Of a DNA stretch of 64,000 nucleotides, positions 5,536-58,653 are shown in pieces (the stretch's first letter is position 1; each line of letters begins with the position of its first letter). Source of the stretch: Bacteroides sp. ET71 (lineage in GTDB: Bacteria; Bacteroidota; Bacteroidia; Bacteroidales; Bacteroidaceae); assembly GCF_023336905.1 (NCBI RefSeq), contig NZ_JAMBLS010000007.1, forward strand, positions 1 to 64,000, written 5' to 3'. The position numbers and the translations under genes are program-made. Below the pieces are notes generated by a model. The model made no database searches, was not told the DNA's origin, and saw only the letters and a list, made by a program, of their open reading frames with translations.

Positions 5536-5536
5536 A

Positions 5537-12453: not shown

Positions 12454-12504
12454 ACATTTCCTGCCGAATGTATGTTAAGACGGAAAGGTCTAAACAATGC
12501 AGAG

Positions 12505-13584: not shown

Positions 13585-14254
13585 TCAAATCAGGCAGATT
13601 TCCTTGCCAGTTTTTGACTGTCTTTGTCCGAATGAATTGCCCTTCGCACGTGATATTGGCAGCAATACAGAGTTTAGTCTGAGGACGGCAATTGTGCAAA
13701 ATGTCTTCCAACATTTTATTATTCCGATAAGGAGTCTCGATAAATAATTGGGTCTGATGCTCTGCGTAAACGCGCTGTTCCAATTGCTTGAGCTTTTTAG
13801 CCCGTTCCCCGGGTTCGATGGGAAGATAACCGTTGAAAGCAAAACTTTGCCCATTGAATCCAGAAGCCATTACGGATAAGATGATGGATGAAGGCCCCAC
13901 CAAAGGCACTACCTTTAAGTTCTTCTGTTGGGCAATGGCCACTACATCTGCGCCCGGATCAGCTACAGCCGGGCAACCGGCCTCGGAGATTACACCCATC
14001 GGATGACCTTCCAACAACGGTTGCAGATAGCCGGAAATATCGTTCGGAGAGGTATGTTTGTTCAGAGGATAGAAAGTCATGGAATCTATGTCTGCTTCAC
14101 GATCAACTTTCTTGAGGAAACGACGAGCTGAGCGTACATCTTCCACTATGAAATGACGTATATCTTTTATCACTTCTTTATTATAGGCAGGCAATACAGA
14201 ATCAACAGGCGTATCGCCTAAAGTTACCGGCAACAGATAAAGTGCAGATTCCAT
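13550..14254 (-). CDS. RsmI-like SAM-dependent methyltransferase (tetrapyrrole methylase fold)
   Basis: A 234-residue protein with the tetrapyrrole-methylase fold used by RsmI (16S rRNA 2'-O-methylation of C1402). Diagnostic blocks are VISEAGCPAVADPG, VPLVGPSSIILSVMASGF and FIETPYRNNKML. It is shorter than classical RsmI (about 280 residues) and differs at the N terminus, as does the second RsmI-like paralogue common in Bacteroidota, so the exact substrate is uncertain. The 3' end overlaps the convergent membrane-protein gene by 35 bases. Confidence 0.8.
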   Translation of the reverse strand: MESALYLLPVTLGDTPVDSVLPAYNKEVIKDIRHFIVEDVRSARRFLKKVDREADIDSMTFYPLNKHTSPNDISGYLQPLLEGHPMGVISEAGCPAVADPGADVVAIAQQKNLKVVPLVGPSSIILSVMASGFNGQSFAFNGYLPIEPGERAKKLKQLEQRVYAEHQTQLFIETPYRNNKMLEDILHNCRPQTKLCIAANITCEGQFIRTKTVKNWQGNLPDLTKIPCIFLLYK

Positions 14255-30788: not shown

Positions 30789-30801
30789 CTCTCTTACTTC
30801 G

Positions 30802-31198
30802 TGGACCTGGAGGGAGTCGAACCCTCGTCCAAACGAGGAAATCATAAGCTTTCTACATGCTTATCTTTGCCTAAGTTTTCGTGCTGCGGCAGAACCAAAG
30901 CCATCAACCGCAACCTTATCCTCTAAAGATTTCGCCGACGCCGCGAGGCCGATGCCGACTATCTCCGATATGACTGCACCACTGAACCGGAATGCTTCGG
31001 AGCCACAGCTTCCGAGTGATGTCTCGTTCCAGCACCTGGTGCCGGAATTAAGCTCTAATCTACTGTACTTCGATTACGCAGCGAGAGCGTAGTTGTTTTC
31101 GCCAGATAAATTTTCGAGGACTGAGATTTAAGTGCCAGCCAACGAAGCACTGCATGCTTACCTACCATTTCTGCCCGCTGTCAAATCCAGTCAAGCCC
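30802..31198 (-). ncRNA. ssrA: tmRNA
   Basis: About 397 bases. The 5' end GGGCTTGAC pairs with 3' CAGGTCC (two wobbles) to make the acceptor stem, followed by discriminator A; the CCA is not encoded in full. The T-arm GAGGGTTCGACTCCCTC sits next to the 3' end. The tag frame (31074-31103, minus strand) reads GGC GAA AAC AAC TAC GCT CTC GCT GCG TAA, i.e. GENNYALAA. tmRNA rescues stalled ribosomes and marks their products for proteolysis. The precursor probably starts near a TACCTTTG box at 31245-31252, about 47 bases upstream of the mature end. Confidence 0.97.
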
Positions 31199-33848: not shown

Positions 33849-34199
33849 TCAGGCCGGAAGAGCAAGCAGACGGATAAAGCCGTCTCTCTGCAACTGCATC
33901 AGATAAGTAGTGACACGGGAAGCATAACCCGCCTCTCCCCCAAAATGTTCCGACAGCAACCACACGATTTCACTCACCCTACGCCGGCCGTCTATCAGAT
34001 TCCAGACAGCCGTCCCATGCTCTTCCAAACGGACACGGATAAAGGGTGACATCCCCTTGGGCAAGAAAAAACGGCGCACCCATGCCCGCTTGAAACGAGG
34101 GTAAGCCAAAACAGCACACTCACCCTCCCACTCCGTCACCACATGCGCACTACGCACAGGAACAGCGTCAAGCAGATTATATTTCGCAGAACGACTCAT
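33849..34199 (-). CDS. PqqD-like protein
   Basis: A 116-residue protein whose C-terminal half reads as the PqqD fold: a strand-rich start followed by HGTAVWNLIDGRRRVSEIVWLLSEHF and a last helix ending in LQRDGFI. PqqD domains bind leader peptides of ribosomally made, modified peptides, but Bacteroidota encode many stand-alone copies near no maturase. Here the neighbours are a MFS transporter and DUF4831, so the role is open. The nearest radical SAM maturase gene in this window is 17 kb away. Confidence 0.7.
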   Translation of the reverse strand: MSRSAKYNLLDAVPVRSAHVVTEWEGECAVLAYPRFKRAWVRRFFLPKGMSPFIRVRLEEHGTAVWNLIDGRRRVSEIVWLLSEHFGGEAGYASRVTTYLMQLQRDGFIRLLALPA

Positions 34200-39865: not shown

Positions 39866-40900
39866 TTAAATTCTTCCTTTTTCCTCCATTTTGGCCGTAG
39901 ACAACATGCCGCACGCAGCAAATATATCTTCTCCTCGCGAGGCACGTATGGTGGTGAACAGTCCATGCGAAGTCAGGTAGTCGCGGAATGTGGTCATCGC
40001 CTCCATGCTGCACCCTTCCAGGTCGACGCCCGGTATGGCATGGAAACGAATCAGATTGACGCGGCAGTCAAGGCCGCGCAACAGTTTCAGCAGTTCCTTG
40101 GCATGGGCCATCGAATCGTTGACACCTTTGAACAGGATGTATTCAAACGACAAGCGGCGTTGCTTGCTGAAATCGTAGTTGCGCAGTTCGTCCACCAGGT
40201 CGACGATAGAAAAGGCCTTTTCGGCCGGCATCAGCCCGGCACGCTGTTGCGGCAGGGGGGAATGTAGGCTGACAGCCAGATGGCAATCGGTCTCCAGCAG
40301 AAAACGGCGCAGGTTCTTGCGCAGCCCCACTGTCGACAAGGTGATGCGCTTGGGACTCCACGCAAAGCCGTAAGGGGCTGTCATAATCTCCAAGGCTTTC
40401 TGCACGGCGTCCCAGTTGTCCAAGGGCTCTCCCATGCCCATCATGACGACATTGGTCAGGCGTTCACATTCGGGCAAGGAAACAATCTGGTTAATGATTT
40501 GTCCGGCTGTCAGATTCATGGAGAAACCTTGCTTGCCTGTCATGCAGAACTTGCAGTGCATCTTACAGCCCACTTGCGAGGAGACACAGAGCGTGGCGCG
40601 GTCATCGTCCGGGATATAGACCGACTCGACGAAATGGTTTTCTCCCACTCCGTAGAGATATTTCACGGTGCCATCCACCGAACGCATGGCATCAACCGGA
40701 GCTGCCGCCCCCACGTCAAAGCGCTCTTTCAGCAAAGAGCGCGATTTCAACGACAGGTTGGTCATCTCGTCAATCGAGGTCACTCTCTTGACATAAAGCC
40801 ACGACGCGATTTGCCCGGCGGAAAAGCTTGGCATGCCCAGTTCCTTCACCAATGCCTGCAATTCGGCAAGCGTCAAACCTAAAAGGGATTGTTTCTGCAT
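39866..40900 (-). CDS. rlmN: Dual-specificity 23S rRNA/tRNA adenine-C2 methyltransferase
   Basis: 344 residues from the ATG at 40898-40900. The in-frame extension upstream to 41053 covers the promoter and the 22-bp repeat and is not credible protein. The radical SAM motif is CKMHCKFC, followed by MTGKQGF, GMGEPLDN and the catalytic C-terminal cysteine in RGEDIFAACGML. RlmN methylates A2503 of 23S rRNA and A37 of some tRNAs. A TACCTTTG box lies at 40933-40940 on the minus strand. Confidence 0.95.
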   Translation of the reverse strand: MQKQSLLGLTLAELQALVKELGMPSFSAGQIASWLYVKRVTSIDEMTNLSLKSRSLLKERFDVGAAAPVDAMRSVDGTVKYLYGVGENHFVESVYIPDDDRATLCVSSQVGCKMHCKFCMTGKQGFSMNLTAGQIINQIVSLPECERLTNVVMMGMGEPLDNWDAVQKALEIMTAPYGFAWSPKRITLSTVGLRKNLRRFLLETDCHLAVSLHSPLPQQRAGLMPAEKAFSIVDLVDELRNYDFSKQRRLSFEYILFKGVNDSMAHAKELLKLLRGLDCRVNLIRFHAIPGVDLEGCSMEAMTTFRDYLTSHGLFTTIRASRGEDIFAACGMLSTAKMEEKGRI

Positions 40901-47487: not shown

Positions 47488-47622
47488 TCTTTATTTTATA
47501 TCTATTTTAATCCTTCCTAAATATAGAAAACTGCCTGCAAAGATGAGATTTTTTATGTTTGTATCAAAAGAAAAAATCCCGTGTGACCGTTAAAAAACAT
47601 AAAACATCCATTTATTTAGAGT

Positions 47623-47731
47623 GTTTAAAATTCATTTTCCTGTTATCCCGAGCGTAGTCGGGGGATCTCACTATGCGCTGAAAAGTGTCTGTCATTCTGA
47701 GCGAAGCCCGCAGGGCGTAGTCGAAGAATCT
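47623..47731 (+). repeat. Dispersed two-part intergenic repeat, copy 1
   Basis: Part A starts GTTTAAAATTCATTTTCCTG. Part B (47685-47731) contains GTCATTCTGAGCGAAGCCC and GGGCGTAGTCGAAGAATCT. The same two parts, in the same order on the other strand, occur at 58781-58928; part B differs there by one base in 47. Confidence 0.85.
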
Positions 47732-47894
47732 CTCTAAGGGCTCTGTCCGTCTGGCAGCGCAAGAATGAAGCCTGACCCGTTCAGGCTTTTTTATGCCCTT
47801 CGACATTCAGAATGGGGGATATACTAAAGCAATCAGTAAAAAAACAGGAAAAGAAAACCTTCTAAAGACGCTCCTGGTTCGTGTCTATACACTC

Positions 47895-47938
47895 GAACTT
47901 GGTACGACTTTGGTACGAACCGGGTACGAGCCGGGTCG
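47895..47938. repeat. Four 11-bp tandem repeats (iterons), second locus
   Basis: GAACTTGGTAC, GACTTTGGTAC, GAACCGGGTAC and GAGCCGGGTCG in direct series. The family is the same as at 9102-9145, in inverted orientation. Confidence 0.85.
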
Positions 47939-48122
47939 GTCGGGTGGCCGGAGAGGCACTTATGGTAAAAAATACTGACCCTTTGCGCGTAAGCCAATCT
48001 TCGGCGGGTGAAAGCGTCTTTCCCGAGTGGTGCGCATTTTTATCGTATAGGTTTTAGAGGCTGTTCAAGATTCGCTTTTGTCTGGTTGAGCGTTGTTACT
48101 CCCCGTTATCGGAGGAGAACAA

Positions 48123-48152
48123 CTCGGGATGACAGAGAGAATGAGTTTAAAC
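48123..48152 (-). repeat. Inverted copy of repeat part A
   Basis: The reverse complement matches 47623-47652 in about 22 of 30 positions, with both ends (GTTTAAA and CCCGAG) conserved. It makes the 530-base interval look like an element with terminal inverted repeats. Confidence 0.65.
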
Positions 48153-48199
48153 GCTCTTATTCTTTTTCGATAAAACAGCTATTGTATAGCAAAAAGATG

Positions 48200-48207
48200 T
48201 AACTTTG
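48200..48207 (+). promoter_or_regulatory. -7 box of the TPR-HTH regulator gene
   Basis: TAACTTTG, about 107 bases before the ATG at 48315; no clear -33 element. Confidence 0.45.
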
Positions 48208-48314
48208 CTGTGGGTTAAGTGGACTTAGTGCAAGTGCATTAATTGGGAGGCAAACTGCTTAGCAGGCATTGCATTATGGATTAAACTTGACTTTGCAAGA
48301 AAATTCGATTGAGC

Positions 48315-49994
48315 ATGAAGCAGACTATTCATTTATTCGGCATTGCGGCACTTTTGTTCATTTGGGGGATGGGTGGGTGTAGCCATTCAAATCCGACATT
48401 GACTTCTGTCGAACAACTTATGGACGAAAGACCTGACTCTGCTCTTGCTATACTGCAAGGAATGGATACGCTGACGCTTAAATCGTCGGAAGAAAAAGCG
48501 CTTTATTCATTGTTGTCTGTGCAAACTCGATATAAGAATCATGTTGATGTGCAAGATACTGCTCAGATACAGGCGGCTGTCGATTTTTATGCGGACAGCA
48601 AAGATGATTATCACAAGATGTTGGCCTATTATTACTTGGCTCGTGTGGAAGAAAATAGGCACAAATATTCCATGGCCATTGTCAATCTGCTGAAAGCCGA
48701 AACAGCGGCGAAGAAGATTCCTGATTATTTTTATTTGGGGATGATATATCGGTCTTTTTCTGATATTTACAATTGCATTTTCAATGGTGTGGAGGGGGTG
48801 AAGTATGCCCAAAAAGCCTACGAATGTTTCCAAAAGTCGGGGCATACCCTTCATGCCGACTGGGGGCTGTTGGATATAGGCCGCTCGTTTCATAATGGCG
48901 AAGATTATGACAACAGCGTTGAAGTCTTGCAAAAAGTAGCGGATATTGCTTCGGCCAAACAAGATACCGTTTTGTGGTGCGAAGCCCTGAAGCTTCTGGC
49001 AACTTCAGGCATAGGAAAGAGAGACTACGGATTGACTCGAAGATGTTATGGCCGTATTATAAAGCTTGATGCCGGGCGGATGACGTTGGACGATTATCGC
49101 AATCTCGGGATAGCTTATCTGAAAACCGGCCAAATGGATAGTGCCCAATATTATATGGATAGGTTGGCTTCGGCCGATAGCACCCAGGGATGGCTGCCTT
49201 ACTTGTGGAACAAACGCCAGGGAAACTACCAAGAAGCCTTGCTCGCTTTGGAAAAAGAAAATTCGTACAATAACAAAGTGCTGCATGAGGTCATCAACCA
49301 GAATGTGACAGAGGCGGTTTCCAACTACCACCACTATGAAATGCAGGAGCAAAAGCAGGAATTGATGCGCATAAAGCGCAATGTTGCTGTGTTTTTCATC
49401 ATTTTGTTGTTGATTGCCATTATTGTGATGCAACACATCAGTTCCCAGAAGAAGAAAATAGAAAACAATATGTTGCTTGCATCTGACTTGCGCAATCTGC
49501 TGACGCTAAAGGAAACGGAAGCCCGGGAAATGCGGGATGCGATTAGCAGGAGGTTGGAAAATCAACAAATGGAGCACGAAGCTTTGCAAAAGGCAATTAA
49601 CAATCTATTTGAACAACATTTTGCCACTGTTGACAAGCTGAGCAGTGCGTATTACGAATATCAGGGAACCGCCAACGAAAAGCATAAGATTTATGCGGAT
49701 GTCATGAAGCTTGTTTCCGGACTTGGCTCGGACAAGCAAACGCTCGAAGAGTTGGAACGTTTTGTCAATACTTACAGGAACAATCTGATGTCACGCTTCA
49801 GAGAGGCTTTTCCCGATATGAAAGAGTCCGATAGCCTCCTCTACCTTTATTCCGTTGCAGGGTTTTCGCCGCGTGCCATCAGTATCTTTATCGGCGAAAA
49901 GTTGGAGGTGGTCTATAACAGGAAATCTCGCCTGAAGCAGAAAATCAATCGTAGCCTATCACCGGAAAAAGAGTCTTTTTTGCAGTACATGTAG
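48315..49994 (+). CDS. Membrane-spanning TPR - coiled-coil - HTH regulator
   Basis: 559 residues from the ATG at 48315 (a TTG six bases earlier is less likely). The N terminus is a lipoprotein-like signal ending at Cys22 (WGMGGC). Residues 30-350 are TPR helices that should be periplasmic. One membrane helix follows at about 357-373, then a coiled coil (375-450). The C terminus (about 505-550) resembles a LuxR/sigma-4-type HTH: DSLLYLYSVAGFSPRAISIFIGEKLEVVYNRKSRL. Bacteroidota have many such one-chain sensors. It starts the peptide-maturation region and is the natural candidate for its regulator, which is inference. Confidence 0.78.
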   Translation: MKQTIHLFGIAALLFIWGMGGCSHSNPTLTSVEQLMDERPDSALAILQGMDTLTLKSSEEKALYSLLSVQTRYKNHVDVQDTAQIQAAVDFYADSKDDYHKMLAYYYLARVEENRHKYSMAIVNLLKAETAAKKIPDYFYLGMIYRSFSDIYNCIFNGVEGVKYAQKAYECFQKSGHTLHADWGLLDIGRSFHNGEDYDNSVEVLQKVADIASAKQDTVLWCEALKLLATSGIGKRDYGLTRRCYGRIIKLDAGRMTLDDYRNLGIAYLKTGQMDSAQYYMDRLASADSTQGWLPYLWNKRQGNYQEALLALEKENSYNNKVLHEVINQNVTEAVSNYHHYEMQEQKQELMRIKRNVAVFFIILLLIAIIVMQHISSQKKKIENNMLLASDLRNLLTLKETEAREMRDAISRRLENQQMEHEALQKAINNLFEQHFATVDKLSSAYYEYQGTANEKHKIYADVMKLVSGLGSDKQTLEELERFVNTYRNNLMSRFREAFPDMKESDSLLYLYSVAGFSPRAISIFIGEKLEVVYNRKSRLKQKINRSLSPEKESFLQYM

Positions 49995-50201
49995 TTAACC
50001 TATTGATTACCAATTACCTATTTTACTTCTTTATGTTTAATTGACGTATCTTGCTGGCAATCAGCGTAATATGATCAAAGTTTGAGGGAGGATAGAAAAT
50101 GAAAACTATCTTCCTTTTATTTTATTGATAATCAGCAATATATTAATTTGCATGGATAGATTATTTGAGCTTAAAAATGATAATATTTTGTTTTTGTCGC
50201 T

Positions 50202-50209
50202 TAATTTTG
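50202..50209 (+). promoter_or_regulatory. -7 box before the small secreted protein
   Basis: TAATTTTG followed by C, 30 bases before the ATG at 50239. Confidence 0.5.
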
Positions 50210-50238
50210 CATGAGTGATTAAACAACATTTATGAGCT

Positions 50239-50613
50239 ATGAGAAAATTATTGTATTGCTTAATCCTTATGAGTGCCGTTGCAAATTCCGGCTTGTTTGT
50301 ACCAATGTTGGCGGCAACAAATAATGGAGAGTCATCGTCGCGTTTGCATAGTTCTGCATCTACAGATCGCCCAGAATCAGGTGTTCCTTTATGGATTGAC
50401 TGTCATTATAATTCCGGAGAAATGCGTTTTGATGCTCCTGAGACGTTTAACGATGTCGAGGTTGTCATCACGGAACTGAATACAGGCTGTAGCTTTACAT
50501 ATTATCTGACAAATGGGGAAGCATCGTTGTTTGTCGAACTGAACTCCGGCGCATATAGCATTCTCTATATAACAGAAAAGGGGGTATATGAGGGATGTTT
50601 AGATATTCCATGA
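50239..50613 (+). CDS. Small secreted protein, DUF3244-like
   Basis: 124 residues with a signal peptide (RKLLYCLILMSAVANSGLFVPMLAA). The mature domain, about 80 residues, is all-beta: PLWIDCHYNSGEMRFDAP, FNDVEVVITELNTGC and ASLFVELNSGAYSILYIT. This resembles the DUF3244 family of small Bacteroidota exported proteins that are often encoded near TPR-HTH regulators. No activity is known. It is between the regulator and the precursor peptide gene and could be an immunity or sensor partner, which I cannot show. Confidence 0.65.
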   Translation: MRKLLYCLILMSAVANSGLFVPMLAATNNGESSSRLHSSASTDRPESGVPLWIDCHYNSGEMRFDAPETFNDVEVVITELNTGCSFTYYLTNGEASLFVELNSGAYSILYITEKGVYEGCLDIP

Positions 50614-50731
50614 CAAGATTATAGTTAGAAATAATGTACCGGTATAATTAGGATACAGACCAACCTGTCCAAAGGAGCGGTTGCCGAAAAGCTGTTAAAG
50701 AGTAGGTGTAATAAATGGAAATCATAATAGC

Positions 50732-50923
50732 ATGAAACAAATTGTGACATTACAAGACATTCCTGAAACATTGGATATGCAGGAACTGATGGAAGTGAAA
50801 GGTGGAACTTCGGGTAAAAAAATAATTTGCATTTTTCGTTCGGCTGTTACTATTAAATGCGCACCGGGCGTTAGTGCAGTTGTTCAAGAACCGGAAGATC
50901 CTATTGATGACCTCCGAGATTAG
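50732..50923 (+). CDS. Putative RiPP precursor with double-glycine leader
   Basis: A 63-residue peptide. The leader QDIPETLDMQELMEVKGG ends in a double-glycine (residues 24-25) with the spacing L-x3-EL-x2-V-x-GG used by C39 peptidases and by the 'GG-Bacteroidales' natural product precursors. The predicted 38-residue core has two cysteines (33 and 43), an aromatic/basic start and an acidic end (EPEDPIDDLRD). A radical SAM maturase gene and a C39-peptidase exporter gene lie downstream, so the assignment rests on both motif and context. The modification and activity are unknown. Confidence 0.82.
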   Translation: MKQIVTLQDIPETLDMQELMEVKGGTSGKKIICIFRSAVTIKCAPGVSAVVQEPEDPIDDLRD

Positions 50924-50939
50924 CTTTCGTAGCTAATGC

Positions 50940-51012
50940 AAGACTGTATGAGAATGAGAATCTCCATTGTTGTGTAGAACACATGTGAAACTTTCTCATA
51001 CAGTCTTTTTTG
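50940..51012 (+). terminator. Terminator/attenuator between precursor and maturase
   Basis: A perfect 15-bp stem (50940-50954 with 50993-51007) with a 38-base partly self-pairing loop and a T7 tract. It lies 17 bases after the precursor stop and 29 bases before the maturase start, so it should set a high precursor-to-enzyme ratio. Confidence 0.88.
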
Positions 51013-51040
51013 AATAAATGTTTCAAATAGATAGCTTGTC

Positions 51041-52540
51041 ATGAATAAAGACGGAATAGTAGTACTGAACCCGGATTATCATTTCAAGAATGACAGAGAC
51101 CGGATTGTCATGTATTCAAAGCGAAAGGTATCTTTCGATAGTTCTGCGGAATGGGTAAGTTATATTCATCCCATGCAGGCTATGATTTTAGGATTGTTTA
51201 CCGTGCCGAAATCTTTGAAATTGCACTGTAAAGCCATAGAGAAACATTTCCGCCTGACTCCGGAGGAAGTGGAAACTTTGATAATGCCTTATGTCAATAA
51301 TCCTACTCCTGTATATACCGAAATAGGAAGTGAGAAGGTGTTATTTCCGAAAAATGTGCTTATTCCGTACAGTGAAATCGATGACAACTGTTTAATGAGG
51401 TATGACTTCACAATGGAAGATTTGAAGTGCGATACCGTATGTCTTTCTCAAGATCGTATGCATAAGGCTCCTCATACTCTGTTGTTCATGCTTACCAATA
51501 AGTGCGTCACTCAATGTAAGTATTGCTATGCAGACCGTAAGACGGCATACATACCTTTGACAACTAAACAAATCTTGCAATTCATAGACAACGCACATGC
51601 GTTGAAAGTGTTGTATGTCGATGTGATTGGTGGTGAGGTGTTTTGCCGGAAAGATTGGGATGCTATTCTGTCGCGGTTGGTCGAGTATGATATGACACCC
51701 AGCTATATTTCGACGAAAGTGCCTGTCACCCGGAATATAGTTGAGAAGCTGTATCAGACGGGATATAATGATGTGGTACAATTGTCGTTGGACTCTCTGG
51801 ATGAAAGTATCCTGAAGGAAATGATAGGATGTAAAAGCGGTTATGTCGAAAAAATACGAAACGGGATAGAATGGTTGCAGTCGTATGGATATTTGCTGGA
51901 AATAGATACCGTTTTAACCCGCTTAAATGCGACTAAAAAGCAACTGCAGGAGTTGTATTCATTTCTGAAAGGGGTCAAGAACCTGAGATATTGGGAGATC
52001 AGGATTCCAGAAGTGTCTATTTATACACCAGAGGAGTTTGCTTCGATAAAAGCCGACAGGGAGCAGTTGAATGAAATTTGCAGATTTGTAAAAGAAGAAA
52101 TAATCCCCGATTCTAGGTTTCGGATTTATCTGAGTTCGGAGGCATTGGAAGAAAAATTCCATGCCGGCAAAGCGGATGACGAGTATTTTAACGGGGGAAC
52201 TTGCGGGATTTTGAACGATCGGTTGTTTATTTTGCCTGATGGAAAGGTAGGCGTCTGCGAACAGTTATATTGGCATCCTCAATTTGTTATAGGAGATTTG
52301 AAAAAACAGTCGTTAGAAGAGATTTGGAGTTCTGATAAAGCCCTCGAATTGTTCCATTTGCATCGTAATTTGTTTGAAACGGGTAGTCCGTGTACGGAAT
52401 GTAAAATTCTGGATTCGTGTAACCAGCGGCATAGACGATGTTTTGTGAAAACGGTGAAGGCATATGGAATCAATAAATGGAATTATCCAGATCCTCGTTG
52501 TCAATTTGCTCCGGTATTCAATTCAAATTTGAGGTATTAA
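51041..52540 (+). CDS. Radical SAM/SPASM peptide maturase
   Basis: A 499-residue enzyme. The N-terminal 90 residues resemble the PqqD-like leader-binding region of peptide maturases (HPMQAMILGLFTVPKSLKLH). The radical SAM cysteines are C155, C159 and C162 (CVTQCKYC). The C-terminal SPASM domain for auxiliary iron-sulfur clusters starts at NGGTCGILNDRLFILPDGKVG and includes CTECKILDSCNQRHRRC and a last CQF. This build is that of RiPP maturases forming thioether or C-C links. The nearest substrate is the double-glycine peptide at 50732. Confidence 0.9.
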   Translation: MNKDGIVVLNPDYHFKNDRDRIVMYSKRKVSFDSSAEWVSYIHPMQAMILGLFTVPKSLKLHCKAIEKHFRLTPEEVETLIMPYVNNPTPVYTEIGSEKVLFPKNVLIPYSEIDDNCLMRYDFTMEDLKCDTVCLSQDRMHKAPHTLLFMLTNKCVTQCKYCYADRKTAYIPLTTKQILQFIDNAHALKVLYVDVIGGEVFCRKDWDAILSRLVEYDMTPSYISTKVPVTRNIVEKLYQTGYNDVVQLSLDSLDESILKEMIGCKSGYVEKIRNGIEWLQSYGYLLEIDTVLTRLNATKKQLQELYSFLKGVKNLRYWEIRIPEVSIYTPEEFASIKADREQLNEICRFVKEEIIPDSRFRIYLSSEALEEKFHAGKADDEYFNGGTCGILNDRLFILPDGKVGVCEQLYWHPQFVIGDLKKQSLEEIWSSDKALELFHLHRNLFETGSPCTECKILDSCNQRHRRCFVKTVKAYGINKWNYPDPRCQFAPVFNSNLRY

Positions 52541-52980
52541 GCATTTCAATCTAAGTAGATGTTGAAAATTAGTTTATACCACGATTTTTGTGTAGCTTTG
52601 CATGTACACATAAGTATGTGTGCAAAATTAAATGACACTTTAGCGGTAGGAGGTGCCGCATCCTTGCGGCATACCATCATATTGTTTCTGAACGCTTGTA
52701 GTATACTGCAAAGTAAATGTGCCGCAGGATGCGGCACCTCCTGTAACCTTCTATTTATTGTATAAACCAAATATCAACATTTACTTAATTTGGATATTTG
52801 AATTTGTGTAAAATTAAATGATAATTTATAGGAATTGAGCACAGATGATGCGGATAAGTACAGATTTTTAAGCAGTTGAATTACCCGTGATAATCCTTAC
52901 AATCTGTGTCATCTATGGTTCTAATTTTCATTTATAGAATAAATAAATATCAATATCTACTTAAAATAAAGATACATACA
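52541..52980. other. Intergenic region with nested inverted repeats
   Basis: 440 bases with no gene. It contains a palindromic element (52553-52788), a TAGCTTTG box inside it (52595-52602), and a third AATATCAATATCTACTTAA-like copy at 52943-52963 just before the barrel gene. Confidence 0.7.
52553..52788. repeat. Nested palindromic element (MITE-like)
   Basis: Outer arms of about 26 bp (52553-52578 and 52763-52788) match in about 22 positions. The inner arms (52648-52671 and 52720-52742, starting AGGAGGTGCCGCATCC) are identical apart from one indel. No transposase and no clear target duplication were found. Confidence 0.7.
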
Positions 52981-55281
52981 ATGTTTAGAGGTTTTGTCAT
53001 ATGGGTTGCACTGTTGGCATGTTTTGTTCAACCCTTTTTTGCTCAAAGTATCACCGGGAAAGTGGTGAATCAAGAACTGACTCCTATTCCTTATGTGAGT
53101 TGCGTGCTGCTGAAGCTGCCGGATTCGACATTTGTTGCCGGTGCGACAAGCAGCATGGACGGATGTTTTGAATTGGCTGTCCCGGAGGGAAGCTATGTGC
53201 TCAAATTGTCGTATATCGGTTATAAGGCGAAGGAACTGGAATGTTCGTCAGGCGATTTAGGGACGATTGTCCTTGAAGAAGATGTTCGGGTGCTGGACGA
53301 AGTGGTGGTCAAAGGGGAGGCTCCATTGGTCACCATGGAAAACAACCGTTTGACTTATCATGTGGAGCCTATCATGCAACAGAAGATTGTGGGCAATGCC
53401 CATGAACTTTTAAAGGAATTGCCTTCTGTCATCAGTTTGGACGGGAATACGTTGTCTCTTGTAGGCGCTTCAAGCACGACCATTTGCATTTCTGGAAAGA
53501 AATCGCATTTGAACATGGAGCAATTGACAGATTACTTGAAATCCCTGCCTGTCGAAGAGGTGAAGAAGGTTGAAGTGCTTTACAATGCTCCCCCGCAATG
53601 GCATGTAAAAGGGGCGGTAATCAATGTCGTTTTGAAAAAGAAAAAGAACTATACCCTGAACGGGCAGATACGGGGGGAGTGGGCTAACCAGCACAGAAAC
53701 TCATTGAACGCCAGCGGTACGGTCATTGCATCGACGCCCAAATGGGACTTGGATGTAATCTATAGGTTTGCCGACCAGCAAAGTGTAGATAAGACAGAAA
53801 TGAGCGGGATTCATACGGTGAAGAATGTTGCTTATGAGATTTCTTCTACCACAAAGAACTATAACAAGGGGAATAAACACTCCATTTATGCAAGTGTCAG
53901 GTATAAGATTGATGAAGAACAATCAGTGGATTTCTCTTACAACGGGCAGATTTCGCCTGAGATGACCAGTAAGTCATACAGCCGGAATACCTTGTTCAGC
54001 GATGCAAACTCCATCAACGTGCGTGATAATAATCTTCATAATCTCGCATTGTCCTATACTTCCCAAAAAGGGATTTCGGCAGGCGTTGAATATACGAATT
54101 ATGCCGATGCGGGCACGCAAGACATGGAAGTCTATAGCGGCGATTCTTTTCAACAAGCGTTCTCCTATTGGAGAAAGCAATATATAGACAGGGTCACGGC
54201 TTATCTGGATATGAGCCATAATTTGAAGCATAATTGGGTATTTAATTATGGCGCGAACTATAATTATGTGAACAACCGGAACGAGCAGAGAAATGAGGAC
54301 TTGGCAGGTTCGGGCGAAAATGATTATACAAGAACACTGGAAATAGACGAGCACACGGCTGTGGCGTATGTGGGCTTCCTGAAGTCTTTTTGGGAAGGCA
54401 AACTTTCGCTCGACGCCTCGTTGTCCGGAGAGCTGTATAAATATGGCGAGTATGAGAAAAATGCCTTGCTACCGAATGTGGGGGTGACATTTGTTCCTTC
54501 GCAGAAACATGTTTTCCAGTTGGGCTACCATACATTGCGTACTTATCCCACCTATTGGCAAAAGCAGGATTATACTTCTTATGCGGACGAATACACCGTA
54601 TATATGGGCAATCCGCTGTTGAAGCCAGCCCGTACTTCCAATGTAGATTTGACTTATGTTCTGAAAAACAAATATGTGTTCCAAGTGTCGTATTATCGTG
54701 TAAATGATTTCTTTATCGACCAGAGTTATCAAATGCCGGACGAACTGAGGTTGTTGTACAAGTCGTTCAACATCGATTATACTTCCAGCTTGAATTTCAC
54801 CTCCGTTGTGCCGGTACGCATAGGGAAATGGTTTAGCTCGAACTTGATTTTCAGTGCATACAATGAAAAGTATAAGAGCAATGATTGGTATGGATACCAA
54901 TATGACCGGAGCAAATGGACAGGGACGGCTATGGCAAACAGCACTTTCATTGTCTCACGAAAGCCCCGGTTATCTGTCAACCTTATGGTGTTCTATCGGA
55001 CACCTACGATACAAGGTATTTGGGACTTGGAAAGCAATTGGGGGATTAATGCAGGCATCCGTTATTCGTTCTTGAAAAACTGCGCTATATTGAGCTTGCA
55101 ATGCAACGACCTGTTTGAAACAATCTATCCCAAAACCAAAGTGCGTTTTGAAAGCCAGTATCAGGATGTGAATGAAAGTGCATACAGAAGAAGTGTTACG
55201 CTGAGTTTCACTTATAAATTCAAGGGGTATAAAAACAAGCAATATAAGGAAGTGGATACTTCACGTTTCGGCATACAGTAA
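52981..55281 (+). CDS. TonB-dependent receptor-like outer-membrane beta-barrel
   Basis: 766 residues from the ATG at 52981, which gives the signal FRGFVIWVALLACFVQPFFAQ. A CarboxypepD_reg-like domain (ITGKVVNQELTPIPYVSCVLLK) is followed by a plug-like domain from LDEVVVKGEAPLVTMENNRLTY to INVVLKKKK. A barrel of the OMP_b-brl_3 type follows, ending with aromatic strands. Related barrels are encoded beside GG-type peptide systems in Bacteroidota. Here it could carry the peptide across the outer membrane or act as its receptor. It lies 10 bases upstream of the exporter gene. Confidence 0.85.
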   Translation: MFRGFVIWVALLACFVQPFFAQSITGKVVNQELTPIPYVSCVLLKLPDSTFVAGATSSMDGCFELAVPEGSYVLKLSYIGYKAKELECSSGDLGTIVLEEDVRVLDEVVVKGEAPLVTMENNRLTYHVEPIMQQKIVGNAHELLKELPSVISLDGNTLSLVGASSTTICISGKKSHLNMEQLTDYLKSLPVEEVKKVEVLYNAPPQWHVKGAVINVVLKKKKNYTLNGQIRGEWANQHRNSLNASGTVIASTPKWDLDVIYRFADQQSVDKTEMSGIHTVKNVAYEISSTTKNYNKGNKHSIYASVRYKIDEEQSVDFSYNGQISPEMTSKSYSRNTLFSDANSINVRDNNLHNLALSYTSQKGISAGVEYTNYADAGTQDMEVYSGDSFQQAFSYWRKQYIDRVTAYLDMSHNLKHNWVFNYGANYNYVNNRNEQRNEDLAGSGENDYTRTLEIDEHTAVAYVGFLKSFWEGKLSLDASLSGELYKYGEYEKNALLPNVGVTFVPSQKHVFQLGYHTLRTYPTYWQKQDYTSYADEYTVYMGNPLLKPARTSNVDLTYVLKNKYVFQVSYYRVNDFFIDQSYQMPDELRLLYKSFNIDYTSSLNFTSVVPVRIGKWFSSNLIFSAYNEKYKSNDWYGYQYDRSKWTGTAMANSTFIVSRKPRLSVNLMVFYRTPTIQGIWDLESNWGINAGIRYSFLKNCAILSLQCNDLFETIYPKTKVRFESQYQDVNESAYRRSVTLSFTYKFKGYKNKQYKEVDTSRFGIQ

Positions 55282-55290
55282 TAAACTGTT

Positions 55291-57477
55291 ATGAAGAAAT
55301 TCAAATTCTACGGGCAATATGATGCCATGCAATGTGGCATTGCATGTTTGAGAATGGTGTGTGCTTATTATGGCCGGGAGTATTCTTCGGACTTTATATC
55401 CAAATATTGCCATGCAACGACAGAAGGGGTTTCGTTGCTTGGCATCATGGAGGCTGCGACGAAGTTAGGCTTTCAAACGGTCTGCAATCGCTTGACATTG
55501 GAGCAGTTGCGCGAGAAAAACTTGCCGTGTGTGCTTCATTGGAATCAGAACCATTTTGTCGTTCTGTACAAAATTAAAAAACAAAAGTATTACATTGCTG
55601 ATCCCGGGAAAGGGAAGGTGGTATATGGCAGAGATGATTTTGAGGCGAAATGGTCTCAGTGCGTTGATAATGCAGCTAAAAAAGGCATAGCCTTGTTCTT
55701 AACTCCGTCTGCTTCATTCGATGTAATTCGTGAGGAAATGCCGGAGCAGAAAAAGAATTTAAGTGTTTTGCTGAAATATTTAAGGCCTTATAGGCAACAC
55801 CTTGGAATTGTTATTTTAGGCTTGCTTCTTGGCTGCTTATTGCAGCTTATTCTGCCTTTTCTGACGCAAGCGATCGTCGATATTGGCATAGAACAGCGTG
55901 ATATAAATATTATATGGCTCATTCTGTTGGGGCAGTTGGTTCTTACGATTAGCAGAACATCTGTCGATTTCATCAGGCGATGGCTACTTCTGCACATTAG
56001 TCTGCGTGTAAACATAGCTTTGCTAAGCGATTTTTTCATTAAATTGTTGAATCTCCCCATGGCTTATTTTGAGACTAAACAGATGGGAGATTTGTTAGAA
56101 AGAATGCATGACCATAGTCGTGTTGAGCAATTTCTGACAACACAGTTGCTGAGCATATCGTTCTCTTTGTTGACTTTTGTGGTCTATTCCGTTATTGTGG
56201 GCGTATATGATTGGCTGATTTTGTGTATATTTCTTTTTGGGAGCGTCTTATATGGGGTGTGGATATTGTCATTTCTTCATAAGCGCAAGAATCTGGATTA
56301 TGAGTTGTTTGAAAAACAAGCTCAAAACAACAGTTATACTTATCAATTGCTGACTTCGTTGCAAGAGATAAAACTTCAAAATTGTGAAAAACGGAGGCGT
56401 TGGGAATGGGAGGATGTTCAAGCCGATTTGTCGCTTGTACGTATGAAATCACTAAAGTTGCAACAAACTCAAGAGGCGGGAAGCATTTTTATTAATGAAA
56501 TCAAGAATATCATTATCACCATATTCTCGGCTACGGCTGTGATAAAAGGAAATATGTCGTTAGGTATGATGCTGGCTGTGCAGTATATTATTGGGCAATT
56601 AAACAGCCCGATAGAGCAGTTGATGCATTTCATTTATTCTCTGCAAGATGTGAAGCTCAGTTTGGCGCGGATCAACGAGATTCATTCGAAAGAGGATGAA
56701 GACAATGAGATGCGGAATGTGGTCGTGGATGATTGTTGTCAAGGCATTTGTTTCTTCCATGTCGATTTCAAATATGATTTGCACAATCCTCATAATACGA
56801 TAGAAAATATTACTTTTACAATACCTGAAGGCAAAATTACTGCCATTGTCGGTGCTTCCGGAAGCGGAAAAACAACTTTGATAAAACTGATGTTGGGTTA
56901 TTATCCGGTAGGTGGCGGAAGTTTGCATATTGGAAATGTTGACATAAATGATATAAACTTGAAATGGTGGCGCAGGCAATGTGGGGTGGTTATGCAAGAC
57001 GGAGTGATTTTTTCGGAATCAATAGAAAGGAACATTGCAGTAGATGATGGTGAAATAGACAGAGAGCGGCTTGTTAAAGCGGTAGAAATTGCAAACATAA
57101 AAGATTATATTCTAAGTTTGCCGCTAAAGTATAATACAAAAATCGGCAGGGATGGAATAGGGCTGAGTCAAGGGCAAAAGCAACGAATACTTATAGCACG
57201 TGCGGTATATAAGAATCCATCTTTCATCTTCCTGGATGAAGCTACCAATGCCTTGGATGCCAAGAATGAAAAAGTGATTGTGGAGAACCTGAATGAGTTT
57301 TATAAAGGACGTACAGTCATCGTTGTTGCCCATCGGCTTTCAACAGTGAAAAACGCTGATCAAATAGTCGTACTTGATGAAGGCAGAGTTGCAGAAATCG
57401 GGAATCATACTTCTCTTATAGAGAGACAGGGCGTGTATTATAATCTGGTAAAGAATCAACTGGAGTTAGGTAATTGA
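55291..57477 (+). CDS. C39 peptidase-containing ABC exporter (PCAT)
   Basis: A 728-residue protein with three parts. The N-terminal C39 peptidase has Cys15 (DAMQCGIACL), His88 (NQNHFVVLY) and Asp104 (IADPGKG), all intact. Six membrane helices span about 165-430. The ATPase has Walker A GASGSGKTTL, signature LSQGQKQR, Walker B FIFLDEATNALD and the H-loop VVAHRL. Such exporters cut leaders after a double glycine and export the core. The precursor at 50732 has exactly such a leader. It is followed one base later by the HlyD stub. Confidence 0.94.
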   Translation: MKKFKFYGQYDAMQCGIACLRMVCAYYGREYSSDFISKYCHATTEGVSLLGIMEAATKLGFQTVCNRLTLEQLREKNLPCVLHWNQNHFVVLYKIKKQKYYIADPGKGKVVYGRDDFEAKWSQCVDNAAKKGIALFLTPSASFDVIREEMPEQKKNLSVLLKYLRPYRQHLGIVILGLLLGCLLQLILPFLTQAIVDIGIEQRDINIIWLILLGQLVLTISRTSVDFIRRWLLLHISLRVNIALLSDFFIKLLNLPMAYFETKQMGDLLERMHDHSRVEQFLTTQLLSISFSLLTFVVYSVIVGVYDWLILCIFLFGSVLYGVWILSFLHKRKNLDYELFEKQAQNNSYTYQLLTSLQEIKLQNCEKRRRWEWEDVQADLSLVRMKSLKLQQTQEAGSIFINEIKNIIITIFSATAVIKGNMSLGMMLAVQYIIGQLNSPIEQLMHFIYSLQDVKLSLARINEIHSKEDEDNEMRNVVVDDCCQGICFFHVDFKYDLHNPHNTIENITFTIPEGKITAIVGASGSGKTTLIKLMLGYYPVGGGSLHIGNVDINDINLKWWRRQCGVVMQDGVIFSESIERNIAVDDGEIDRERLVKAVEIANIKDYILSLPLKYNTKIGRDGIGLSQGQKQRILIARAVYKNPSFIFLDEATNALDAKNEKVIVENLNEFYKGRTVIVVAHRLSTVKNADQIVVLDEGRVAEIGNHTSLIERQGVYYNLVKNQLELGN

Positions 57478-57478
57478 T

Positions 57479-57688
57479 ATGGAAGTAAAAAAAGGTAGTG
57501 CCTCTGACCGAATGGAACTCCGTTCGGAAAAGGTGCGTAATATCATAGGCACGATTCCTCCGGCATTGGTGTGTTGGAGCATAGTCGTGATTGCAATCAT
57601 TTTCGTTGGGCTTTTATTAGTGTTGTTTTTTGTTCCTTATCCGTATGAAGAGGGTGAAACGTTTTTTCAGCATTGGTTTCTTTCGTAA
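57479..57688 (+). CDS. HlyD-like N-terminal stub (truncated or stand-alone)
   Basis: 69 residues. The start MELRSEKVRNIIGTIPPALV followed by one membrane helix (about 33-53) and PYPYEEG matches the beginning of Bacteroidota HlyD-type adaptors that work with PCAT exporters. Full-length adaptors have over 400 residues; here the frame ends soon after the membrane segment. I see no continuation in other frames of the next 250 bases. It may be a decayed adaptor or a genuine small accessory protein of the exporter. Confidence 0.65.
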   Translation: MEVKKGSASDRMELRSEKVRNIIGTIPPALVCWSIVVIAIIFVGLLLVLFFVPYPYEEGETFFQHWFLS

Positions 57689-57812
57689 ATTTGCGAAAAT
57701 GTGTATGCTTCATCTGCTTTAGTTAGTGCTGATTGGCAGGTGATTGCAAACTTTTTCTCATTTTGTGGAACGGTTTCCCTTTTTTTGACCGATTGATTAA
57801 AAAAATCCTCTT

Positions 57813-57820
57813 TATTTTTG
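57813..57820 (+). promoter_or_regulatory. -7 box of the DUF6266 gene
   Basis: TATTTTTG, 125 bases before the start codon; the -33 element is not well spaced. Confidence 0.4.
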
Positions 57821-57945
57821 CACACGAAACAGAAACGATAGAAGTTTCTGATATGTGAAATCTTGCGAAGGATTGCTGCAGAAATCATTCGGAAGAGGAC
57901 GCTGGAGTAAACCAAATCTTTAACCTTTTAATTTTTGATTTTAAC

Positions 57946-58653
57946 ATGGGAACAATTACCAAGGGTATTCTCGGGGGATTTTCCGGGAAAGTCGGGACTG
58001 TGGTAGGCAGTTCGTGGAACTCTATCAGTTACATGCGTTCGTTGGCAGATGGTTATACTGACCCAAAGACGGAGAAACAGGTGTGTCAACGGGGGCGTTT
58101 TGCGGAAGTTGTCCGTTTCTTGAAAACAATGGTGCCTTATTTGCGCATCGGTTACAAGGAACATCCGGCCGGGCAATCGGCTTATAGTTCGGCTATGTCT
58201 TACGTGTTGAAAAACGCGGTGGAGGGTTGCGGCGCTGATGCGACCGTTGATTTCCGGAAAGCCATGATCAGCCGCGGCTGTCTGGTAGTGCCTGGAGATG
58301 CGGCAGTAGAAGCAGCCGGCGGAAAGTTGACGTTCACGTGGACGGACAACAGTGGCAATGGTAATGCGGCTGCCGACGATGTGGCAATGGTGCTGGTCTA
58401 TAATAAGGTGAAGGCGGAAGCGGTCTATGACCTGGGGGCTGGTGCAAGGGCCGATGGCACGGCAGAGTTGACGTTGCCGGGCAGTTGGGGCGATGAGGCG
58501 TTGGCTGTCTATCTGAGCTTTCGGAATGCGCAGGGGCAGAGTGTATCGAACAGCCTGTGTTTGCAGGATGATGAGGTTATTTCTTCGCCCGACGGTGGTG
58601 CCGACGGGGAAGAGGGCTCGGATGATGACAGTGGCCAAGGCACATTTGGCTGA
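57946..58653 (+). CDS. DUF6266 family protein with SDDDSGQGTFG tail
   Basis: A 235-residue protein of the Bacteroidota-specific DUF6266 family. The start GTITKGILGGFSGKVGTVVGSSWN is the family signature, followed by SYMRSLADGYTDPKTEKQ and a beta-rich second half. It has no signal peptide. The C-terminal 20 residues are acidic and end GSDDDSGQGTFG, as does the HU-like protein at 24591. DUF6266 has no known function; its architecture recalls structural proteins, but that is impression only. Confidence 0.85.
   Translation: MGTITKGILGGFSGKVGTVVGSSWNSISYMRSLADGYTDPKTEKQVCQRGRFAEVVRFLKTMVPYLRIGYKEHPAGQSAYSSAMSYVLKNAVEGCGADATVDFRKAMISRGCLVVPGDAAVEAAGGKLTFTWTDNSGNGNAAADDVAMVLVYNKVKAEAVYDLGAGARADGTAELTLPGSWGDEALAVYLSFRNAQGQSVSNSLCLQDDEVISSPDGGADGEEGSDDDSGQGTFG

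Follow-up and report, generated by a model that had tools for sequence, protein, structure and literature searches.

Peptidase-containing ABC transporters (PCATs) cut peptides after a double-glycine (GG) motif and transport them across the inner membrane. How the peptides of gut Bacteroidales pass the outer membrane is an unsettled question. In the passages of Fernandez-Cantos et al. 2023 on clusters BGC6-9, a PCAT and an outer membrane protein (OMP) are described without a membrane fusion protein (MFP), and the authors ask whether transport is different or an MFP was undetected (PMC10352776). In the account of the bacteroidetocins, passages on gene content and release report a thiol oxidoreductase and a multi-helix TM protein for most or all bacteroidetocin regions, and the authors state that release by lysis could not be ruled out (PMC6671954). 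A 2022 survey of graspetides, in its part on clusters with PF14905 barrels, predicts that OMPs related to TonB-dependent receptors act as graspetide exporters (PMC8939145).

Here, we describe a cassette from Bacteroides sp. ET71 that bears on this question (Table 1). Judging from its genes, it probably makes a small modified peptide (RiPP) from a GG precursor via a radical SAM/SPASM maturase. The window is the whole stretch of 64,000 nucleotides that was analyzed. The initial annotation had listed a regulator, a small secreted protein, a precursor, a maturase, a barrel and a C39 exporter in one direction, and our reading of the ORFs confirms that all six are open and co-oriented where it had placed them. 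The catalytic residues that it had called intact, i.e., C155, C159 and C162 of the maturase and C15, H88 and D104 of the exporter, are all present. Its end coordinate, 57688, is the end of a seventh gene (57479-57688) that it did not list.

Table 1. Features of the cassette.
Feature	Position	Strand	Description	Basis
Whole cassette	48315-57688	+	six named genes and a seventh, short last gene	
Regulator	48315-49994	+	lipobox-like N-terminus, TPR repeats, membrane helix at about residues 357-375, HTH-like C-terminal end	Pfam, by eye
Small secreted protein	50239-50613	+	124 aa, signal-peptide-like N-terminus	sequence
Precursor peptide	50732-50923	+	63 aa; leader 25 aa ending MEVKGG; core 38 aa with Cys33 and Cys43	
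Hairpin	50940-51007	+	runs into a T run; gap between precursor and maturase	
Maturase	51041-52540	+	radical SAM/SPASM peptide maturase, 499 aa	Pfam, cysteine motifs, alignment
Outer-membrane barrel	52981-55281	+	CarboxypepD_reg_2, TonB-box-like LDEVVV (by eye), plug, OMP_b-brl_3	Pfam, profile
PCAT	55291-57477	+	C39 peptidase-containing ABC transporter, 728 aa	Pfam, residues
Mini-MFP	57479-57688	+	69 aa; N-terminus MELRSEKVRNIIG..PP, one membrane helix, PYPY..GE....H tail	alignment

Relatives of the cassette were found by an alignment-based scan of genome contigs; a single maturase query gave no match. The first set of 81 loci consists of the window plus 80 others, the best among 176 relatives. 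Other species keep the arrangement of precursor, maturase, barrel, PCAT and short last gene, e.g., in loci L060 (Phocaeicola faecalis), L061, L107 and L122 (B. ihuae). As to the membership of the cassette proposed initially, the order of precursor, maturase, barrel and PCAT is thus kept in relatives, but the regulator and the secreted protein fall outside the conserved core, and neither lies beside the cassette in the nearest relative, L060, where the opposite strand instead encodes a histidine kinase and what looks by eye like a response regulator. From these comparisons, the two proteins are predicted to be accessory to the cassette. All TPR repeats of the regulator are below the Pfam cut-off, its lipobox-like N-terminus and HTH-like C-terminal end were recognized by eye, and a hydrophobic stretch lies at residue 357. 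No curated NCBIfam family matched the regulator (BT3442 family, 69 of 940 bits), and the rest of the genome gave one weak match only (31% over 85 residues). The small secreted protein had no match in Pfam, and DUF3244 (PF11589) was not reached (hhalign probability 38% over 24 columns). The same slot is occupied by DUF3244 proteins in L117, L122 and L128, not in L063 and L107, and across the genus, 72 of 158 genomes have matches for DUF3244-like secreted proteins. The G+C content is 0.39-0.44 across 47500-58000, below much of the flank, and gives no clear island signal there. A Bacteroidota promoter pair (TTTG/TAnnTTTG) at the usual spacing was not found in 47601-57700, which holds -7-like words only, among them TAATTTTG at 50202.

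Several lines of evidence support the idea of a radical-SAM RiPP system with a GG leader and a PCAT, as initially proposed. Of 74 loci, 56 carry a GG-leader ORF that begins the search range of ≤700 bp upstream of the maturase or lies within it, compared with 2/74 on the opposite strand and 90/1600 random windows from those loci, and these controls rule out a chance GG motif; the 74 are those that remained after dropping loci with no + strand maturase ORF >430 aa or with the maturase within the first 450 bases, and 18 of them have no GG ORF by the search pattern. The neighborhood comparison around maturase homologs that the initial annotation had suggested, in which lack of the precursor would speak against the system, thus came out in its favor. 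The window precursor and its six nearest relatives have in common the leader and both core Cys residues; in these seven aligned sequences, the invariant core residues are the two Cys and one Pro, and several precursors contain CxxxGxG-like repeats. In Pfam, the precursor has only a sub-cut-off match to the Bacteriocin_IIc leader (E 0.0045; 17.4 of 27.1 bits), and in NCBIfam TIGR03949 is the sole match at E up to 1, also below cut-off. TIGR04149 does not match the precursor, and neither it nor TIGR04148, which we take to be the maturase partner model of this GG-Bacteroidales precursor model, is among the 17 NCBIfam matches of the window maturase at E up to 1e-10, on the assumption that both models are present in the library. 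The hairpin downstream of the precursor has z = −3.4, and among 14 precursor/maturase gaps chosen from the 56 loci with a GG ORF, z is ≤ −3.3 in 11 (the others being L064, L098 and L117). This hairpin is likely a partial terminator setting the precursor:enzyme ratio.

The maturase matches Radical_SAM (9e-16) and SPASM (6e-12) in Pfam and contains the CxxxCxxC cluster motif as well as the SPASM cysteines; the 10 radical SAM and SPASM cysteines checked are invariant across a 26-row alignment. Its N-terminal domain of ~110 aa is conserved and stands where a RiPP recognition element (RRE) would sit. Pfam RRE or PqqD did not match this domain in the 6 members scanned, and the one comparison made with the N-terminus of another maturase was negative.

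The exporter is a PCAT by sequence in that it combines the Cys-His-Asp residues of a C39 peptidase with ABC membrane and ATPase domains (Peptidase_C39, 4e-34; ABC_membrane; ABC_tran), including Walker A and the ABC signature. It is the sole C39 match in the genome. The alignments identify the 69-aa product of the seventh gene as a putative stub of an HlyD-type MFP. This mini-MFP has no lipoyl domain or hairpin and no Pfam family, and the short forms tested reach no Pfam HlyD family. Among 15 mini-MFP sequences from 15 loci, the relatives are 29-49% identical to that of the window; the window and six others have 62-71 aa, one has 82 and seven have 159-181. Eight forms of ~160 aa can be aligned with five full-length MFPs at either end. 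Relative to a full-length reference of 435 aa, they retain residues 3-71 and 332-429 and lack the ~260 middle residues in which the lipoyl domain and the TolC-docking hairpin reside. The tails of six of these eight match a profile of the full-length C-terminus at E 5e-7 or better, and among shuffled control tails 0/160 did better than E 0.26; the tails of L122 and L127 had no significant match to it. The 69-aa form of the window is alignable to MFPs through its N-terminus and membrane helix only. By comparison, full-length MFPs behind other PCATs pass the Pfam HlyD_3 cut-off (5/5), have sub-cut-off lipoyl matches near residues 66-101 (5/5) and give TIGR01843 matches of 2e-26 or better that stay below the cut-off (4/4). 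Hairpin-less MFPs of 62-82 aa and ~160 aa with conserved residues recur across Bacteroidota in many genera. Searched against the PDB, the mini-MFP profile hit membrane proteins only, and these resemble chance helix matches (best E 0.018), and our literature search found no description of a hairpin-less MFP or of its PCAT clade. Beside the PCAT, the operon encodes no full-length MFP that carries a lipoyl domain and an alpha-hairpin, and it contains no TolC-type gene. Because the operon has no full-length MFP and no second protein like the 69-aa mini-MFP was found in the genome, it is doubtful whether the system is complete in the usual sense.

The barrel gene that had been noted is present, but its likely start is ATG 52981 rather than GTG 52906; our analyses of the protein run from 52978, one codon ahead. 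Pfam finds OMP_b-brl_3 (1e-48) and CarbopepD_reg_2, and the plug region and the TonB-box-like motif (box by eye) are kept along a 16-row alignment. The barrel profile matches the colicin I receptor (2e-18, profile positions 130-361) and, further, ferric enterobactin receptors, BtuB and, weakly (3e-5), a PQQ transporter, presumably an importer of another radical-SAM-made product. By its predicted plug, barrel and TonB box, the protein is built as a TonB-dependent receptor. In L062, L111 and L133, the reading frame of the barrel overlaps that of the PCAT or almost reaches it, which suggests, and does not prove, joint function.

One PCAT clade (26 rows, SH-aLRT 100) includes several maturase types; the mini-MFP is present in 26/26 of its rows, and the barrel lies directly upstream in 20/25. 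Of the 59 PCATs classed for MFP and barrel in the first set, those with a barrel have 14 mini and 0 full-length MFPs, and those without have 9 mini and 12 full-length MFPs (Fisher p 6e-4). Outside this test are, with uncut upstream side, one barrel locus without MFP by the rule used (L065) and two at contig ends, as well as 11 barrel-less loci without MFP by that rule, three with an MFP of middle length and one at a contig end; the rule missed the short ORFs of L113 and L114, and the classes of L098 and L113 were assigned by hand. In a second set of loci picked by MFP alone, the barrel lies directly upstream of the PCAT in 9/16 mini loci vs. 0/17 full-length loci (Fisher p 3e-4). This set was hand-picked: 18 short forms with end-to-end matches (of 19 among the matches listed, B. 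ihuae being left out as already represented) and 20 full-length MFPs near the top of the matches listed, not a random sample; L226 and L247 have no usable PCAT, and L218, L235 and L243 lie so close to a contig end that they could not be assessed. It is not fully independent, since two of its contigs, L216 and L219, are by their length already in the first set as L102 and L111; minus these two, 7/14 mini loci have the upstream barrel. According to the PCAT trees, both Fisher tests are confounded by common descent, and we therefore reject them as proof of the association and claim a clade-wide module rather than repeated independent gain. The first PCAT tree holds 3 independent pairs, none differing in barrel/mini state, and the joint tree 5-6, of which 1-2 follow the association and 0 run counter to it (p 0.5-1). 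The joint tree excludes L102, L111, L065, L085, L123, L124, L134 and C39-like ORFs >900 aa, as well as loci whose MFP was classed as neither mini nor full-length (L066, L069, L103, L104, L106, L110, L114, L115, L129, L131 and L136). The link between barrel and mini-MFP is thus largely that of one clade, with too few independent pairs for significance. Mini-MFPs also occur without a barrel directly upstream of the PCAT, in 10 rows outside the clade and 5 inside, e.g., in L080, which is inside the clade and has two other genes, no barrel, between maturase and PCAT.

On balance, we favor a model whereby the locus is a RiPP export cassette with a modified core, release by a mini-MFP PCAT and another route across the outer membrane, and we hold this model with reasonable though far from full confidence. 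The maturase would modify the 38-residue core, most likely joining the cysteines into S-C (thioether) crosslinks, and the product may serve in antagonism, as a signal or in metal scavenging. The PCAT would cleave after GG and carry the product across the inner membrane. As its sequence shows, the single-helix MFP remnant beside it has kept the inner-membrane-proximal end and lost the parts that would build a tunnel to TolC. Because the mini-MFP lacks these tunnel parts, the product would most likely enter the periplasm or be handed over rather than pass a continuous PCAT-MFP-TolC channel. The outer membrane would then be crossed in some other way; here the TonB-type barrel encoded in the cassette is, on weaker grounds, the leading candidate. 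Only tentatively do we suggest a dedicated Bacteroidota module for export of GG peptides, in which mini-MFP and PCAT combine with various maturases and the TonB-type barrel leads outward in place of TolC.

The barrel may instead be a TonB-dependent receptor for re-uptake or sensing of the finished peptide or its metal complex, with export via a generic TolC route and an MFP encoded elsewhere. This has a substantial chance, if well short of even: the plug and the TonB-box-like motif seen by eye are conserved along the alignment, the nearest solved relatives of the barrel are importers or receptors, and 13 matches to the general HlyD_D23 family in this genome could serve in trans. However, it leaves the loss of the MFP middle beside the barrel unexplained in all 26 clade rows, and the overlapping or nearly touching frames of barrel and PCAT count against it. 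That the 69-aa gene is instead a broken MFP gene in a dying cassette is scarcely credible. Most of the MFP is indeed missing and Pfam assigns no family; yet short forms whose residues are conserved are found in many genera, the window shows no remnant of an MFP reading frame behind the gene, and the neighboring genes are open with their named catalytic residues intact. We reject decay as largely refuted by this recurrence and conservation.

Regarding the product, the maturase could form C-C or other crosslinks and leave the cysteines to disulfides or metal binding. Among solved structures, its best relatives divide between SkfB (6efn, E 4e-17) and the 5v1q family (5e-17), with 5wgg at 7e-6; we take SkfB to be the sporulation killing factor maturase of the sactipeptide type, 5v1q to be SuiB, which forms C-C bonds, and 5wgg to be CteB. 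The invariance of two Cys besides one Pro in the seven cores and the CxxxGxG-like repeats argue against this alternative, which we consider rather unlikely. Far less probable is that the peptide is simply a class II bacteriocin like the bacteroidetocins and that the radical SAM gene is unrelated to it. The GG leader, PCAT, Cys-containing core and Bacteroidales host would fit, but maturase and GG precursor occur together in 56 of the 74 loci, and the operon proteins include neither a thiol oxidoreductase nor a multi-helix TM protein.

If the export model is correct, a PCAT with an MFP shrunk to a membrane stub hints at an unfamiliar exit of peptides from a double-membraned cell. The recurrence beside the barrel of an MFP without its tunnel-forming middle implies that a missing MFP may exist and be too short for annotation. 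A PCAT with a membrane protein of 60-190 aa and the pattern ELRSEKVRxIxG...PP encoded behind it may serve as a marker for further peptide clusters with any maturase.

The cassette resembles PCAT-MFP-TolC microcin exporters of the colicin V type in its C39 PCAT for cleavage of a GG leader, but differs from them in an MFP without lipoyl domain and hairpin and in a TonB-type barrel with no TolC-type gene in the operon. The maturase shares the radical SAM core and SPASM cysteines with sactipeptide and ranthipeptide maturases (SkfB, 6efn; 5wgg); unlike these, it reaches the cut-off of no maturase model among the NCBIfam matches listed. With the bacteroidetocins (class IIf; Coyne et al. 2019), it shares the Bacteroidales host, GG leader, PCAT and core Cys, but the description of their regions has a TM protein, usually a thiol oxidoreductase, and mentions no maturase (PMC6671954). 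The graspetide clusters, as far as the survey describes them, differ in having an ATP-grasp maturase and HlyD-family MFPs, of which no shortened form is mentioned (PMC8939145). Also close are the predicted Bacteroidales RiPP clusters that combine a radical SAM enzyme, a GG precursor and a PCAT, some of which have OMP and TPR genes as well; from these, as their description stands, the present cassette is set apart by its mini-MFP, none being mentioned there (PMC10352776).

The six genes named in the initial annotation are present at the place it gave, on the same strand, and the catalytic residues that it named in the maturase and the peptidase all occur in the window sequences. The same interval of this 3.6-Mb genome contains a seventh gene, on which the initial annotation was silent, encoding a membrane protein of 69 aa.

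Coordinates of the cassette and of other features in the window and in homologous loci of relatives' genomes
Sequence	Feature	Position	Strand	Remark
Window	Regulator, small secreted protein, double-glycine (GG) precursor, maturase, outer-membrane barrel, C39 peptidase-containing ABC transporter (PCAT), 69-aa membrane protein	48315-57688	+	seven-gene row
Window	69-aa membrane protein	57479-57688	+	seventh gene
Window	DUF6266 protein	starts 57946		next gene, 257 bases 3' of cassette
Window	tmRNA gene	30801-31198	-	tag GENNYALAA
Window	PqqD-family (PF05402) match	33873-34034	-	within 124-aa open frame, away from cassette
Window	Radical SAM domain	11764-12240	+	additional to maturase
Window	Radical SAM domain	40106-40582	-	additional to maturase
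L062	GG precursor	729-908		5' of regulator gene, ~1.9 kb from maturase
L064 (L040)	Barrel gene	~11515-13826		apparently split by frameshift; metagenome-assembled relative
L080	647-aa protein, by eye a secreted trypsin-like peptidase, and 287-aa glycosyltransferase-like protein	2972-5775		in barrel's place

Several lines of evidence support the reading of the cassette as a RiPP system. A profile scan of the genome contigs collection gave 176 maturase relatives, of which the best 80 were used (by title, 76 Bacteroidota, and 4 labelled Lachnospiraceae). Among these and the window, 56 of 74 usable loci carry a 35-110-aa ORF whose leader is of GG type on the same strand within 700 bp 5' of the maturase, compared to 2/74 on the opposite strand and 90/1600 in random windows from the same loci. 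Thus, the precursor is not missing from all homologous loci, and the putative radical-SAM RiPP system of the initial annotation is supported. L062 was scored as a miss because its precursor lies beyond the 700-bp limit. The window's precursor and six near relatives share the aligned leader consensus MKxIVxLSDxPxxLDVxELMxVKGG and invariant Cys33 and Cys43 (window peptide numbering); several cores carry CxxxGSG-form repeats, which in the window core are degenerate at best. Of 14 precursor-maturase gaps tried, 11 gave a more stable fold than 60 dinucleotide shuffles (z -3.3 or below; window z -3.4) and three fell short (z -1.7 to -2.0); in the window, the hairpin leads into a T run. This hairpin is likely a partial terminator, which would allow an excess of precursor to be produced.

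The maturase has radical SAM and SPASM domains, and all ten cluster cysteines that were checked are conserved without exception across 26 aligned sequences. Among the NCBIfam matches listed for the window protein, only the general SPASM domain model reached its cut-off, while no maturase model did (best 81.5 of 265 bits). By profile comparison, the closest solved relatives are SkfB and the 5v1q family, which favour neither thioether nor C-C chemistry over the other. No RRE was detected by a Pfam scan of six members or by one comparison with another maturase's N-terminus. Within the genus, relatives at E < 1e-50 occur in 21 of 158 genomes, own genome counted, and matches at E 0.001 in 38, many being generic radical SAM proteins only.

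The initial annotation also counted the regulator and the small secreted protein as part of the system. In L060 of Phocaeicola faecalis, which is the nearest relative (56% identity), the cassette runs precursor, maturase, barrel, PCAT, short protein; the opposite strand carries genes for a histidine kinase and for a protein resembling a response regulator, and neither a regulator nor a secreted protein like the window's is found next to the cassette. A regulator and a small secreted protein occur together at five loci (L063, L064, L107, L117, L122). Within the genus, 72 of 158 genomes have matches to DUF3244-like proteins, which are, therefore, not specific to the cassette. From the window's protein, neither family search nor profile comparison reached DUF3244. 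Neither gene is thus retained as part of the conserved system.

The sequence of the 69-aa protein is similar to the beginning of a 434-aa protein encoded 3' of a PCAT in locus L043. Five of five such full-length proteins tested exceed the Pfam cut-off for HlyD_3 at ~residues 283-390, and lipoyl matches near residues 66-101 and TIGR01843 matches along the length (4/4) lie below cut-off; as judged from these profiles, they are HlyD-type membrane fusion proteins (MFPs). Short relatives follow the PCAT in 15 aligned loci, with longest ORFs of 62-71 aa in the window and six others, 82 aa in one (L064, with a diverged tail) and 159-181 aa in seven. Aligned with five full-length MFPs, eight ~160-aa forms cover residues 3-71 and 332-429 of a 435-aa reference but have nothing in between. 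In MFPs, the missing stretch holds the lipoyl domain and the TolC-docking alpha-hairpin, and the position of the full-length lipoyl matches is consistent with this. A profile of full-length C-termini matched six of the eight ~160-aa tails at E 5e-7 or better (L122 and L127 gave no match), whereas none of 160 shuffled tails scored better than 0.26. Most of the shortest forms, including the window's, end in a short PYPY..GE....H tail. Altogether, the alignments show the short forms to be MFPs without their middle. No Pfam family covers the 15. The window's genome has one C39 match, no further protein resembling the 69-aa one was found there, and of its 13 general HlyD_D23 matches, two share a frame and one scores below cut-off. 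The MFP-like proteins that follow the PCATs of L177, L178 and L179 are 214-257 aa long, between the short and the full-length forms.

A search with the short-form alignment matched 68 of 396 genomes of the class, mostly via the N-terminus of full-length proteins, and an end-to-end alignment matched 219 of 393 genomes of the order; among the matches listed for the latter, most are full-length and at least 19 are short forms, 158-223 aa long, that align from end to end. In a second set of loci chosen via the MFP alone (18 short, 20 full-length), a PCAT of usable length lies 5' within ~0.5 kb in 17 of 18 short loci; the remaining locus has a PCAT fragment at the contig end. The barrel stands directly 5' of the PCAT in 9/16 short versus 0/17 full-length loci that could be judged (7/14 short loci once two contigs shared with the first set are removed). 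The first set, found via the maturase, has 14 short and 0 full-length loci with the barrel, and 9 and 12 without it. Short MFPs also accompany other radical SAM enzymes of 418-447 aa (L172, L217, L223, L229, L231, L233); of these, L231 and L233 have no barrel immediately 5' of the PCAT. In L217, a different radical SAM enzyme (436 aa) is encoded together with a barrel, a PCAT, a short MFP and four or more GG precursors whose cores are of CxC type. In another architecture, the PCAT is followed by a full-length MFP (~380 aa; split in L069) and then the maturase; this order occurs in L067, L069-L076, L078, L079, L086 and L091, frequently with a CGLGCF/Y core in the precursor; Phocaeicola vulgatus ATCC 8482 (L076) has it, and the pattern used found no GG ORF there.

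In a 75-row PCAT tree, the short/full-length trait changes six times, at least four of these forced by well-supported branches. A 26-row clade (SH-aLRT 100 by a quick method) has the short MFP in 26/26 and the barrel upstream in 20 of 25 judgeable rows; L080 is one of the five others and has no barrel but two other genes at that place. Beyond this clade, an adjacent barrel accompanies the short form in one row (L229) and is lacking in ten. Repeated co-evolution of barrel and short MFP was set aside because independent pairs on the PCAT trees are too few to show joint evolution; the sound claim is that of a conserved clade-wide module.

PCATs cut GG leaders, and MFP hairpins extend to TolC. Gene order, conservation, homology and the missing MFP middle are direct observations. 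We suggest that the product bypasses the PCAT-MFP-TolC tunnel and is instead released into, or handed over in, the periplasm, with the barrel as the best candidate for the outer-membrane step. That the barrel is a receptor for the product and not its exit is nearly as likely, because it retains a plug and a TonB-box-like motif, and the solved proteins related to it act as importers or receptors.

Bacteroidales rSAM/PCAT clusters were predicted earlier, and the absence of an MFP from BGC6-9 was raised there as an open question (PMC10352776). Graspetide export by TonB-dependent-receptor-related OMPs was predicted (PMC8939145) and the bacteroidetocin secretion route is unresolved (PMC6671954). 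A search of open-licence papers revealed no account of an MFP without its hairpin alongside a PCAT. What stands out in the cassette is the reduced MFP, which is paired with a TonB-type barrel across a clade.
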